A stretch of 64,000 bases of DNA from Spirosoma panaciterrae DSM 21099 (GTDB lineage Bacteria > Bacteroidota > Bacteroidia > Cytophagales > Spirosomataceae): contig NZ_KB893172.1 of assembly GCF_000374025.1 (NCBI RefSeq), positions 310,001 to 374,000 of the forward strand, written 5' to 3'. Made by a program: the position numbers and the translations under genes. The notes below the pieces were generated by a model. It saw only the letters and a program-made list of their open reading frames with translations. It made no database searches and was not told the origin of the DNA. Positions 1,743-5,996 of the stretch are shown here, piece after piece (within the stretch, counting starts at the first letter, position 1; every line of letters begins with the position of its first letter).

Positions 1743-2426
1743 ATGCGAATTTTGATCGTAGAAGATGAATGGGAAGTTGCGTCGCTGATTAAAAATGGGC
1801 TGGAAGAGTACGACTTTAGCGCCGATATTGCAGGCAATGCCATGGAAGCGAACCAGCAACTGGCCGACCATGAATACGATACGGTTATTCTGGACGTGAA
1901 CCTCCCCGTCATCAGCGGATATGACCTGTGCCGCATGATTCGGAACAAATACGAAACCCTGCCAATCCTGATGCTGACGGCCTTTGGCAGTACCGAAAAT
2001 AAACTGACAGGTTTCGATGCCGGTGCCGACGATTATCTGGTAAAACCCTTTGAATTTCGGGAACTTGTGGCCCGGCTGCGGGCGCTGAACCGGCGAAATG
2101 GCGTTGTGGTTCAGGAGCCCACCGTACTCAAAATTGCTGATCTGGAACTCAACTTGCAGAGCAAAGCGGTGAAGCGGGGAAATCAAAAGATACTGCTGAC
2201 CGCCCGCGAACTGGCTCTGCTGGAGTTTTTTCTGAAGAATCAGAATCGGGCGCTCACCCGGCAGGATATTATGGAGCATGTGTGGGACCTTTCGTTCGAT
2301 ACAGGCACCAATGTGGTCGATGTGTACGTCAATTACCTGCGCAAAAAGATCGATAAAGATTTCCCGCTCAAGCTGATTCATACCCTTAGCGGGATCGGCT
2401 ACATTATGCAGGCCTCTGACGAGTAA
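1743..2426 (+). CDS. OmpR/PhoB-family response regulator
   Basis: A 227-residue DNA-binding response regulator. The receiver domain (about 1-115) has acidic residues Glu7-Asp8-Glu9, phospho-acceptor Asp51 in VILDVNLP, Thr79 and Lys101 in the VKPF motif. The C-terminal winged helix (about 130-225) has the OmpR-type block ending in VVDVYVNYLRKKID. The cognate kinase gene starts 5 bp downstream, so the two form one operon. The 11-bp phased repeat array at 3794-3855 is a candidate binding site. The inducing signal cannot be read from the sequence. Confidence 0.93.
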   Translation: MRILIVEDEWEVASLIKNGLEEYDFSADIAGNAMEANQQLADHEYDTVILDVNLPVISGYDLCRMIRNKYETLPILMLTAFGSTENKLTGFDAGADDYLVKPFEFRELVARLRALNRRNGVVVQEPTVLKIADLELNLQSKAVKRGNQKILLTARELALLEFFLKNQNRALTRQDIMEHVWDLSFDTGTNVVDVYVNYLRKKIDKDFPLKLIHTLSGIGYIMQASDE

Positions 2427-2430
2427 ACTC

Positions 2431-3798
2431 ATGAGAATACGCACGCGCCTTTCGTTTACGTTTGTGGGGGTCGTTGCGGCCATACTGCTCCTGTTCTCAT
2501 TTGTAGTGTATGCTACAGCTGAGTATTTCCGCCAACGGGATTTTTACCTTCGGCTGAGCGATAAGGCCAAAACGACGGCTCGTCTGTTGCTGGATGAAGC
2601 AGAGGTAGACACGCGTTTACTGCGAATTATCGAGCGGAACAACCTGACCGCCTTGCCTCAGGAGCAGATCAACGTATACGACCAGCAGGGGCGGCTCGTG
2701 TATTCAACCCAATCCCGATCCATTGTCGAACCTGTTGTCTTACAGCGTATCCGGCAGAAAAAAGAAATTTTTTTACGGCAGAATAAAGTCGAGATTGTCG
2801 GGTTTACGTACCTGCACCATAAGCAGGAGTATGTGCTGGTTGCGTCGGCCTATGACCAGTATGGCATCGAAGAAATGGGGCATCTGAGCACCATTATGGG
2901 CGTTGGGCTGGTTTGTAGTCTGGCGTTGGTCGGTATGGTGGGCTGGGCGTATGCCGGACGATCGCTGCGGCCCATTTCCAGGGTCATTCAGGAGGTCGAC
3001 CAGATCACGGCATCGAACCTGAACCGTCGGCTAACGGCGGGTAACGATCAGGACGAGCTGGCCCAACTGGCCCGTACCTTCAACCTGATGCTCGACCGGG
3101 TGCAGGAAGCGTTTGAAGTACAGCGAAATTTTGTGGCCAATGCGTCGCATGAACTGCGTACACCCCTAACGATCATTACCGGACAGATCGAAGTGACGCT
3201 GATGAAACGGCGCACCGTTGAAGAACACGAGGCCAAATGGCGGGCGGCTCTTGATGTGATTCAGCGGATGAACAAACTGACCAATAACCTGCTCAATCTG
3301 ACGCTGGTGAGTTTGGGGGCTACTCCGTTGAAATTCAGTGAGGTAGCGGTCGATGAAGTCATCTATCAGGCCGCACAGATGCTGATGAATCATCAGGAAG
3401 AGTACTCGGTCGTATTTTCGTTCGATGGCGAAGTGGAGTCGATTCAGCCTTCGCTGACCATCGCTGGTAATAAATCGCTGCTGTATTCGGCCTTTTTCAA
3501 TCTGATGGAAAATGGCTGTAAGTTTTCCGCGAACAAGCAGGTAAAGGTTACGCTGGGGGCCAACAATCGCTGGGTCACGATCCGGTTTGAAGACGAAGGA
3601 ATTGGGATTTCGGAAGCCGACCTGAAGCAGATTTATGAACCTTTCTTCCGGGCGCAGAACGTCAAGCGCATTCACGGGCATGGAGTCGGCCTGCCCCTGA
3701 CCTATCGGATTATTCAACTCCACTACGGCCAGATCGATGTGATCTCGCAACCCGAGCAGGGTACTACTTTTACCGTTCGTCTGCCTAAATCGCTCTAA
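2431..3798 (+). CDS. HAMP-domain sensor histidine kinase
   Basis: A 455-residue inner-membrane kinase. Transmembrane segments lie near residues 11-30 and 152-173 and flank a periplasmic sensor region of about 120 residues. A HAMP linker follows, then the HisKA domain with His240 in the NASHELRTPL motif, and an HATPase_c domain with N (LMENGCKF), G1 (DEGIGIS) and G2 (GHGVGLPL) boxes. It starts 4 bp after the regulator gene's stop and is presumably its partner. The first copy of an 11-bp repeat array overlaps its stop codon. Confidence 0.93.
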   Translation: MRIRTRLSFTFVGVVAAILLLFSFVVYATAEYFRQRDFYLRLSDKAKTTARLLLDEAEVDTRLLRIIERNNLTALPQEQINVYDQQGRLVYSTQSRSIVEPVVLQRIRQKKEIFLRQNKVEIVGFTYLHHKQEYVLVASAYDQYGIEEMGHLSTIMGVGLVCSLALVGMVGWAYAGRSLRPISRVIQEVDQITASNLNRRLTAGNDQDELAQLARTFNLMLDRVQEAFEVQRNFVANASHELRTPLTIITGQIEVTLMKRRTVEEHEAKWRAALDVIQRMNKLTNNLLNLTLVSLGATPLKFSEVAVDEVIYQAAQMLMNHQEEYSVVFSFDGEVESIQPSLTIAGNKSLLYSAFFNLMENGCKFSANKQVKVTLGANNRWVTIRFEDEGIGISEADLKQIYEPFFRAQNVKRIHGHGVGLPLTYRIIQLHYGQIDVISQPEQGTTFTVRLPKSL

Positions 3799-3855
3799 TC
3801 GATTTCTAATCAACTTCTAACAGTCCTCTCATTGACTTCTAACAGCCTCTTAATG
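3794..3855 (+). promoter_or_regulatory. 11-bp phased direct repeats, candidate PhoB/OmpR-type operator
   Basis: The pentamer TCTAA occurs at 3794, 3805, 3816 and 3838, a one-mismatch copy TCTCA at 3827, and TCTTAA at 3848. All are spaced by 11 bp (22 across the degenerate copy). OmpR/PhoB-family dimers bind direct repeats with an 11-bp period, and such a regulator is encoded just upstream. The array ends about 20 bp before a -7-like element GAACTTTG at 3876-3883, as expected for activation or repression of the next gene. Confidence 0.6.
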
Positions 3856-3908
3856 AAAGAGTAGGTTCGTTAAAAGAACTTTGTTGTCTGGAAAAGCACG
3901 CACGAACT

Positions 3909-4226
3909 ATGAACGGTTTTCGGGCTATGAACAACAAAAATGGCAGTGGGAGAACTTCCAGGAAATACATCAACTGGCTAACCGTCTGGGGGTTTATCGT
4001 GGGGTGTATCGCCTACAATCTATATGTCGATAATCGACAGAAGCAATTGATTACCAAAGCGTACCGGACACAGTATGAAATCGAAAGCCAGCGGGCCGAT
4101 TCCCTCTACAAAGAAACAATCCGGCTGGAACAACGCCTTCAACAGATCGAAACACCAACCGGGCGAAAACTGTCGACCCGACAGCCGGCCGGTTCACCAA
4201 CTGCATTGACCGCCCGCGAACTGTAA
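3909..4226 (+). CDS. small single-pass membrane protein with coiled coil
   Basis: A 105-residue protein starting at ATG 3909, with a second ATG at 3927. One hydrophobic segment (INWLTVWGFIVGCIAYNLYV, about residues 24-43) is followed by a charged, helix-prone region (about 45-85, rich in Gln, Glu, Arg) that could form a coiled coil. No domain is recognised. It sits directly behind the repeat array and -7-like box, so it is a likely target of the neighbouring two-component system. Function unknown. Confidence 0.65.
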   Translation: MNGFRAMNNKNGSGRTSRKYINWLTVWGFIVGCIAYNLYVDNRQKQLITKAYRTQYEIESQRADSLYKETIRLEQRLQQIETPTGRKLSTRQPAGSPTALTAREL

Positions 4227-4245
4227 GCGGTCGGTACGCAGAAGT

Positions 4246-4310
4246 CCTGCCCTAAGCGGTTGCTCTGAAATGCCTCGTACAGAGCTTCCGGTTTAGGGCA
4301 GGCACTATTT
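4246..4310 (+). terminator. hairpin terminator between small membrane gene and SulP gene
   Basis: CCTGCCCTAA at 4246-4255 pairs with TTAGGGCAGG at 4293-4302. Inside, GCTCTG pairs with CAGAGC. A run of six T follows shortly after, giving the form of an intrinsic terminator. It suggests the SulP gene has its own promoter or is reached by read-through. Confidence 0.6.
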
Positions 4311-4343
4311 TTTACCGAATGCAACTACATACGACATAGACAC

Positions 4344-5996
4344 ATGCTCAACGTGAATCAAGTTATAGAACCTAAAAACCGACTGGGCGATATTCGGGGC
4401 GGAGCCATTTCGTTTCTGGTCGCCGTACCCCTGTGCCTGGGCATTGCCCTGGCCTCCGGGGCTCCTCTGTTTGCGGGCATCATTGCCGGTATTGTGGGGG
4501 GGCTGATCGTCGGCATTTTCAGTCGGTCGGCGCTTAGTATTTCAGGACCCGAAGCCGGGCTGATCGTCGTTACCCTGGGTGCCATTCAGACCCTGGGGTC
4601 TTTTCCTGCCTTTCTGCTGGCCTTGTGCATAGCCGGGCTGTTTCAGATCGGATTTGGGTTTGCCAAGGCAGGTAATGTCAGCAATTTCTTTCCTTCGTCG
4701 GTCATTAAAGGCATGCTGGCTGGTATTGGTATCATGCTGATTATTAAGCAACTGCCACACCTGGTTGGGTACGATGCCGACGCGGCCGAAGGGCTGGTGC
4801 TGTTTCAACCCAACGGGTTCGACCTGAACGAGCAACTGCGTATGGCCATGAGCCAGTTTAGCCTGACGGCTATTCTGATTACGGTTGTTTCGCTTACGGT
4901 GTTCTATGTGTGGGAACGCCCGTCGTTCAAGCGGCAGGCGTTTGCCAAAAATGTCCCCGCAGCGTTGGTTGTCGTCGTGTTGGGGATTCTGACGAACGAA
5001 TTCATGAAACTGATGGCTCCGCAATGGGCCTTGTCGGGTAATCATCTGGTGCAGCTCCCCGTTTCCGACAGCGTAGAGGGCTTTTTCAAGCTATTTACCT
5101 TTCCTGATTTTTCGCAGTGGAACAACCCAATGGTGTATTCGTCGGCCATCGCCATTGCGCTGGTGGCCAGTCTGGAGGCACTGCTGGCCGTTGAAGCCTG
5201 TGATGAACTGGACCCGCTGAAGCGGAAAACACCCGCCAACCACGAGCTGAAAGCACAGGGTATCGGGAACGTGATTAGTGGCCTGATCGGGGGTATTCCG
5301 CTGACGTCGGTGATTGTTCGGAGTTCGGTGAGCATCAACGCGGGGGCTCGTACCAAACTGGCGGCTTTACTGCACGGATCGTTGCTGCTGGTTTGTGTGG
5401 TAACCCTCCCAGCGGTGCTCAACAAAATTCCCTGGGCGAGTCTGGCGTCGATTCTGCTGGTAACGGGGTATAAACTGGCGCGGATCGACATTTTCAAATC
5501 CACTTTTGCCGAAGGGCCCGCCAAGTTCATTCCTTTCTGCGTCACGGTATTGGCCGTTGTACTGACCGACTTGCTGACGGGGATTGGGATCGGGATGGTA
5601 ACGGGGGTTTTCTTTATCCTGCGCGATCATTACCGAAATACGCACCAGGTACGGACCGAGTGGGATAGCGACATCAAACGGATTCACGTGAGCCTGGGCG
5701 ATTATGTGTCGTTCTTGAGCAAAGCCCGCGTGATGAAGTTGCTGAAAAGTATCCCCGACAACGCGATTATCGAAATCGACGGGAGCCAGTCATCATATAT
5801 CGACAGTGATGTGGTTACGGCTATTCAGAATTTCGGTATCGGCGCTAAGCAACGGAACATTCGGCTCATTTTTCGCCCCAGCCCGAACGCCGATCTACCC
5901 CCCGTTTTCAATTCCAGCGATACCGGAAAGAGCCACCGCAAAAACTCAGAGTTTCACCTGCACGGTCAGATAAACACTGCGGCCGTCGGAAGGTAG
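4344..5996 (+). CDS. SulP-family inorganic anion transporter
   Basis: A 550-residue inner-membrane transporter. The N-terminal half is a run of hydrophobic helices with SulP features: AVPLCLGIALASGAPL near residue 28 and GIVGGLIVGIFSRSALSISGPEAG near residue 50, the latter being the family's substrate-site region. After the last helix a STAS-like domain follows (about 450-530, with IIEIDGSQSSYIDSD). SulP proteins carry bicarbonate, sulfate or other anions; the substrate cannot be told here. The last 51 bases overlap the 3' end of the convergent TonB receptor gene. Confidence 0.92.
   Translation: MLNVNQVIEPKNRLGDIRGGAISFLVAVPLCLGIALASGAPLFAGIIAGIVGGLIVGIFSRSALSISGPEAGLIVVTLGAIQTLGSFPAFLLALCIAGLFQIGFGFAKAGNVSNFFPSSVIKGMLAGIGIMLIIKQLPHLVGYDADAAEGLVLFQPNGFDLNEQLRMAMSQFSLTAILITVVSLTVFYVWERPSFKRQAFAKNVPAALVVVVLGILTNEFMKLMAPQWALSGNHLVQLPVSDSVEGFFKLFTFPDFSQWNNPMVYSSAIAIALVASLEALLAVEACDELDPLKRKTPANHELKAQGIGNVISGLIGGIPLTSVIVRSSVSINAGARTKLAALLHGSLLLVCVVTLPAVLNKIPWASLASILLVTGYKLARIDIFKSTFAEGPAKFIPFCVTVLAVVLTDLLTGIGIGMVTGVFFILRDHYRNTHQVRTEWDSDIKRIHVSLGDYVSFLSKARVMKLLKSIPDNAIIEIDGSQSSYIDSDVVTAIQNFGIGAKQRNIRLIFRPSPNADLPPVFNSSDTGKSHRKNSEFHLHGQINTAAVGR

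Follow-up and report, generated by a model that had tools for sequence, protein, structure and literature searches.

The DNA analysed here (the window: the whole stretch of 64,000 nucleotides, G000:C1:310001-374000, within an 8.13 Mb genome) harbours a cassette that is arranged, with all genes on the plus strand, in the order of regulator, kinase, putative operator and promoter, small membrane protein and SulP transporter. The four genes are as follows (positions are those of the window):

1743 to 2426, plus strand: OmpR/PhoB-family response regulator of 227 aa, the presumed binder of the array described below (Pfam Response_reg, 1.3e-28; Trans_reg_C, 4.3e-23)
2431 to 3798, plus strand: membrane sensor histidine kinase of 455 aa (Pfam HAMP, HisKA and HATPase_c)
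3909 to 4226, plus strand: small protein of 105 aa with one predicted membrane span (open reading frame)
4344 to 5996, plus strand: SulP-family anion transporter of 550 aa (Pfam Sulfate_transp, 7.1e-54)

The regulator is of the OmpR/PhoB family, as its receiver and winged-helix Trans_reg_C domains both score above the Pfam cut-offs; its homologues with solved structures include DrrD, PrrA, PhoP, KdpE and BasR/PmrA. The best NCBIfam models for it are of the heavy-metal/CopR-CusR type, with none of the 25 matches listed reaching its own cut-off. The transporter scores above the cut-off of the broad Pfam family only, and reached 139, 165 and 159 bits against the named BicA, DauA and SulP models, whose cut-offs are 880, 614 and 380 bits, respectively. 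No family match was found for the small protein in Pfam or NCBIfam. It carries a single hydrophobic stretch and, in an alignment of 29 orthologues, a conserved NWxTVWG / W-x-x-V/I-W-G core; an ATG at 3927 suits the start of the orthologues better. As a guess, it could be a partner or a brake of the kinase.

From the end of the kinase gene onward, six copies of one word follow each other at a spacing of exactly 11 bp throughout and precede a promoter element:

3794 to 3859, plus strand: putative operator of six 11-bp phased half-sites of the TCTAATC type (read from the sequence and conserved in 36 of 36 orthologous loci)
3794, plus strand: half-site 1, TCTAATCGATT
3805, plus strand: half-site 2, TCTAATCAACT
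3816, plus strand: half-site 3, TCTAACAGTCC
3827, plus strand: half-site 4, TCTCATTGACT
3838, plus strand: half-site 5, TCTAACAGCCT
3849 to 3859, plus strand: half-site 6, at the place of a -33 element, CTTAATGAAAG
3876 to 3883, plus strand: -7 promoter element GAACTTTG, of the Bacteroidota TAnnTTTG type, conserved in register

The original prediction had placed six 11-bp repeats at 3794, 3805, 3816, 3827, 3838 and about 3849, the first of them inside the kinase stop codon. Both parts were borne out: the stop codon TAA (3796-3798) lies within half-site 1, and none of 20,000 local shuffles attained the column-agreement score of the six copies. This motif-free score, taken over the best six columns of six copies, comes to 67 of 90 and exceeds that of every other period-11 stretch in the 64 kb, whereas the best score in 20 dinucleotide shuffles of the whole window was 52. 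The span first proposed, 3794-3855, holds in that it ends with the core of copy 6, yet the register extends to 3859. Tandem Repeats Finder reported copies 1 to 2.5 only (3794-3820, score 40), which are 87% alike, and missed the later copies because what the copies have in common is the core and not the spacer. The period was also rightly ascribed to OmpR/PhoB regulators, as the neighbouring regulator carries Response_reg plus Trans_reg_C and 11 bp is the half-site period of PhoB; half-sites in tandem, in the same orientation and about 11 bp apart, are the arrangement of a direct-repeat operator of the OmpR/PhoB type. In the window sequence no array precedes the regulator's own gene, thus autoregulation is not indicated.

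The -7-like element that was expected after the array was recovered as GAACTTTG at 3876-3883, with one mismatch to TAnnTTTG (seven of eight positions compatible); other orthologues have the full TAnnTTTG, and the TTTG is present in all 35 aligned orthologue rows. Since TAnnTTTG is placed at -12 to -5 relative to the transcription start in Flavobacterium (available text of PMC9723704), transcription would be expected to start near 3888. This -7 box is shared with the Bacteroidota sigma-A promoters as outlined in the accessible parts of PMC9723704, PMC7366714 and PMC2483708 (TAnnTTTG at -7, TTTG at -33). Unlike them, the window promoter is without a TTTG at the -33 distance: none occurs in 3849-3860, and the place is occupied by half-site 6 in 36 orthologues. 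For Bacteroides promoters, the -33 TTTG is described as needed for full activity, though not essential (excerpted text of PMC2483708), and in F. johnsoniae it could not be found genome-wide (as cited in the available part of PMC7366714). A sigma-70 promoter scan of 3600-4400 found none, with 0.6 expected.

Orthologues of the kinase, defined by E <= 1e-150 with the best seven candidates per genome scored, were found in 36 of 222 family genomes at 54-100% identity, and the next match is clearly apart (E 1.3e-115, 41% identity). The orthologous loci include Spirosoma (7), Larkinella (8), Siphonobacter (2) and Fibrisoma (2). Within the genus, the kinase is present at 76-100% identity in 17 of 36 genomes, while the other 19 have only paralogues at about 44% or less. 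For the 19 named loci, kinase and SulP are displayed in all and the regulator in 18; the genes flanking the cassette vary between genera.

Conservation of the motif 3′ of orthologous kinase genes had been proposed as a check, and six in-register repeats were kept in all 36 loci; loss of the array from relatives that keep the operon, which would have spoken against its reading by the regulator, was thus seen in none. Over six copies, 35 of the 36 arrays deviate only once or twice from the six-position word; the remaining one (L086) does so five times and has extra copies. In 34 loci, the array start lies at -5, counted from the end of the kinase stop codon; it lies at +4 (L235) and +1 (L237) relative to the stop codon in the other two, where the array is therefore conserved as DNA and not as coding sequence. 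The distance from repeat 6 to the TTTG is 31 bp in 35 loci (34 by script and L096 by alignment, the script having picked an earlier TTTG at 18 bp there while the alignment has another at 31 bp) and 42 bp, one period more, in L086, a fixed distance to the served promoter as is characteristic of an OmpR/PhoB-type operator. The 35 orthologue rows align over 90 columns with no gap, and majority identity falls from 0.953 in the core to 0.829 at position six, 0.64 in the spacer and 0.429 in the DNA between array and -7 box. In one genome only (G032; L010 / L061), about 130 extra bases lie between promoter and small gene, with array and -7 box intact.

An ATG-started small open reading frame (at least 60 aa and related to that of the window) lies between promoter and SulP in 29 of the 36, and SulP is downstream in all 36. 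The small gene is absent in five loci of one genus (L090, L092, L097, L233 and L234; two of that genus are named Siphonobacter), where SulP, 142-145 nt past the TTTG, is itself the first open reading frame of at least 60 aa downstream of the promoter. L055 and L059 also have no small open reading frame of at least 60 aa, a match to the small gene nonetheless being found in the genome of L055. In nine of 17 Spirosoma loci (L051, L053, L054, L056, L057, L058, L060, L061 and L062), the small gene and SulP are at most 43 nt apart. In the window, one further feature stands between the two genes:

4243 to 4313, plus strand: terminator-like hairpin followed by a U-run (-48.7 kcal/mol, z -6.9)

None of 200 shuffles folds as well as this hairpin. 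A simple terminator scan of 3600-4400 reported none, missing the hairpin because its 12-base loop exceeds the scan's loop limit of 3-8. The window shares this arrangement, a hairpin followed by six T that separates the small gene from SulP, with L048 and L049, the two closest relatives. The predicted control of the small membrane gene is supported by the fixed distance from array to -7 box. That of SulP, at first offered with a 'perhaps', is strengthened by its presence in 36 of 36 loci, in five of them as the first gene after the promoter, a reading that the hairpin qualifies for the window, L048 and L049.

The array and its promoter were sought at other places with a sequence-only model built from the 35 orthologue rows. 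In its own genome, the model scored 72 bits at this site and 23 bits at the next best. Across the 36 genus genomes, 17 matches of 67-76 bits were obtained, one for each genome with a kinase orthologue, and the 19 genomes without one had no strong site (best 30.2 bits); as the 17 strong-scoring arrays are part of the model, their high scores are given by construction and the absence of other strong sites is the informative part. A further 44 weaker matches at E <= 0.01 occurred in the genus genomes, of which at least seven (G001, G005, G006, G017, G019, G022 and G024), as compared by eye, begin no more than about 105 bp downstream of a kinase paralogue.

Similar arrays recur in the genome of the window. 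The exact triple YYTAA at 11 bp gave 27 matches (17 distinct arrays) versus five for the reversed pattern, and triples with two mismatches allowed showed no excess (40 versus 35 in the reversed control). Within 2 kb of the 19 Trans_reg_C genes, 19 YYTMA triples were counted at period 11, versus one at period 7 and none at periods 8, 9, 10, 12, 13, 14 and 15. Arrays lie near nine of these 19 genes, with a one-mismatch array right after the C11 kinase as a tenth. Other loci have the same phase between array and TTTG. Some of the 17 distinct arrays are without an adjoining regulator (C1:13314, C26, C38, C39 and C71); that at C1:13314, with no regulator beside it, looks like chance and was set aside.

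In a 25-kb region (G000:C4:41194-65631; L081 and L082), six 11-bp arrays ring one regulator-kinase pair (L081, 15412-17481). They are made of TCTAAG and CTTAAG words, with TCTAAG the commonest, and precede genes for a trehalose-phosphate synthase/phosphatase, an alpha-amylase-family enzyme, a TPR protein and an HlyD-type membrane fusion protein; the cluster is likely a local stress regulon. The array at G000:C46:285604-285652 (L077) lies between a kinase and an efflux-type gene set with the TTTG phase seen elsewhere. The one at G000:C5:179386-179423 (L112) is right after a kinase gene but lies on the opposite strand, its half-sites reversed relative to the next gene. A TTTAATC-type array at G000:C26:51320-51357 (L114) precedes a second SulP gene, with no adjoining regulator and a poor -7 fit.

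In the class, a strict pair followed by TAnnTTTG was found in 25 of 247 genomes (30 rows, 28 distinct arrays), with a kinase or regulator within about 1.5 kb in 10 of 25 loci, four of the 25 ending at contig ends. The match counts alone (30 rows versus four in the reversed control at period 11; 18 versus 20 at period 12) are not strong evidence; the phase is. In the 28 class arrays, the gap from the second TCTAAY to TAnnTTTG takes only the values of 9-12, 18, 21-24 and 32-34, so that 25 of 28 fall in three bands 11 bp apart, compared with three of 18 in the period-12 control; the bands were set after the gaps had been seen, and the class genomes are partly related. Rayleigh R is 0.78 at period 11 (p about 4e-8; 0 of 200,000 simulations), and with one array per genus over 18 genera the median p is about 4e-5. 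Periods of 10.5 to 12 fit about equally in this test, and the period-12 control clusters weakly (p about 0.04). In the class sample, then, the distance from array to promoter is helically phased. Three class loci (L125, L126 and L130) carry a longer conserved promoter block, TCTAAT three times and then TATTTAGATTAAATATAA, with no regulator in view.

In the phylum, the strict triple was found in 23 of 395 genomes, with 33 rows versus five for the reversed pattern. A kinase or regulator lies within about 1.5 kb in 12 of 23 loci outside the genome of the window, a count that covers the fetched loci and leaves out the array G625:C1:4170482. Over the class and phylum scans, neither gene is in view in about half of the loci. 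Six genomes outside the class (L137-L142) have TCTAAY-TCTAAY-TCTCAY followed by a fourth word, TAAGATC; a kinase is in view in four of them and none in L140 and L141. L135 and L136 look like plain TCTAACC tandem repeats and were discarded.

Tandem 11-bp half-sites of OmpR/PhoB regulators are a kind already known. The half-sites of PhoB measure 11 bp, with seven conserved and four loose positions, and are bound head to tail (available text of PMC2648988). The array resembles the Escherichia coli pho box in its 11-bp direct repeats with a conserved 7-bp and a loose 4-bp part and in the family of the regulator; the fourth repeat, TCTCAT, even shares TCAT with CTGTCAT. It differs from the pho box in its consensus (TCTAAT(C) rather than CTGTCAT), in having six half-sites versus two in the basic pho box, in the Bacteroidota -7 box and in the position of the operator on the kinase stop codon, and the regulator falls below the cut-offs of the PhoB models (177 versus 296 bits for TIGR02154; 160 versus 270 for NF053854).

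Three tandem dimer sites before one promoter, as proposed here, are found in the OmpR sites F1-F2-F3 before ompF, where a graded response is possible; the ompF system differs in its half-sites, its sigma-70 promoter and a target that is not adjacent to the regulator genes. The boxes of PmrA/BasR have CTTAA-type half-sites, two as a rule, at gammaproteobacterial promoters, and thus share with the array a TTAA-containing half-site at an 11-bp repeat, with two versus six half-sites. The regulator is homologous to PmrA/BasR (E about 1e-30; solved structures 4s04 and 8jo2), and lies below the cut-off of the NCBIfam PmrA model. The boxes of CusR are inverted repeats. Among the NCBIfam models, those of the CopR/CusR-SilR group (TIGR01387, NF007346 and TIGR01386) score best for regulator and kinase, all below cut-off (for the regulator, 219 versus 279 bits for TIGR01387 and 223 versus 420 for NF007346), and the output here is a SulP transporter rather than a metal efflux set. 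In the open-licence PubMed Central literature, we did not find a description of a six-fold TCTAAT placed on a kinase stop codon, of one strong site per genome, of a SulP output or of the class-wide -7 phase. Two matches in the passages available are irrelevant: an '11 bp direct repeat' mentioned in PMC10197871 refers to a tolC deletion footprint, and the TCTAAT found in PMC3646045 belongs to a primer.

The array is, with high probability, an activator operator of the OmpR/PhoB kind within a self-contained two-component cassette. We infer that it is bound by the cassette's own regulator. The kinase would phosphorylate this regulator, dimers of which would bind head to tail on the six half-sites, three dimers in all; the promoter-proximal half-site would take the place of the missing -33 element, the regulator standing in for the -33 contact, and RNA polymerase would be recruited by the bound protein to the -7 box (3876-3883). 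This would switch on the small membrane protein and may also switch on the SulP transporter, via read-through or past a partial terminator.

An operator of the same type could instead repress the promoter, or act as a switch that activates it at one occupancy and represses it at another. A protein bound at repeat 6, which overlaps the -33 region, could also keep polymerase out, and many half-sites permit graded occupancy; against repression, a promoter without a -33 TTTG fits one that needs help, and in the other loci the nearest half-site is about 20 bp before the TTTG, leaving the -7 box free. This alternative is improbable, and we consider it somewhat less probable still that the operator is read by another OmpR-family regulator (the genome has 19 Trans_reg_C genes) or is common to several. 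Arrays near other regulators do have similar TCTAA words, but within the genus the full array is restricted to the genomes in which this kinase is retained (17 of 17 versus 0 of 19), and it stays beside the kinase in 36 of 36 loci while the flanking genes vary between genera.

A role of the repeats at the RNA level, whether in a leader or at the 3′ end of the message for regulator and kinase, is very unlikely. The array begins on the stop codon and is thus probably transcribed with the kinase gene; however, RNAalifold on the 35-row alignment gave 0 conserved pairs, on which an RNA element was rejected, and an 11-bp phasing and a constant spacing to the promoter box characterise a DNA site. Similar arrays also precede genes that have no kinase before them. 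Chance, or the slippage relic of a tandem repeat, which the likeness of the first 2.5 copies might suggest, has a negligible probability and was rejected on the local shuffles, on a core kept over 36 orthologues while the spacer diverged and on the retention of the array in every one of these loci.

Beyond activation through the array in the window, there may be a general Bacteroidota cis-code, a proposition for and against which we find the case evenly balanced. In such a code, OmpR-family regulators would read 11-bp TCTAA-type arrays in fixed register with the -7 box, which would follow the start of a half-site by about 16 bp plus a whole number of periods, at promoters without a -33 element; the operator would often lie at the end of the regulator's own kinase gene, and the identity of the regulator would be specified by the bases that follow TCTAA, which are T/C here and G in the C4 cluster. 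Few direct targets of Bacteroidota two-component systems are known. An operator that is conserved, readable from sequence and linked to the kinase gene beside it points to a dedicated sensor-to-transporter circuit; should the phase rule hold, many uncharacterised kinases throughout the class would be assigned targets by the same search, and if the code is true, the private targets of many orphan two-component systems would become readable in the same way.
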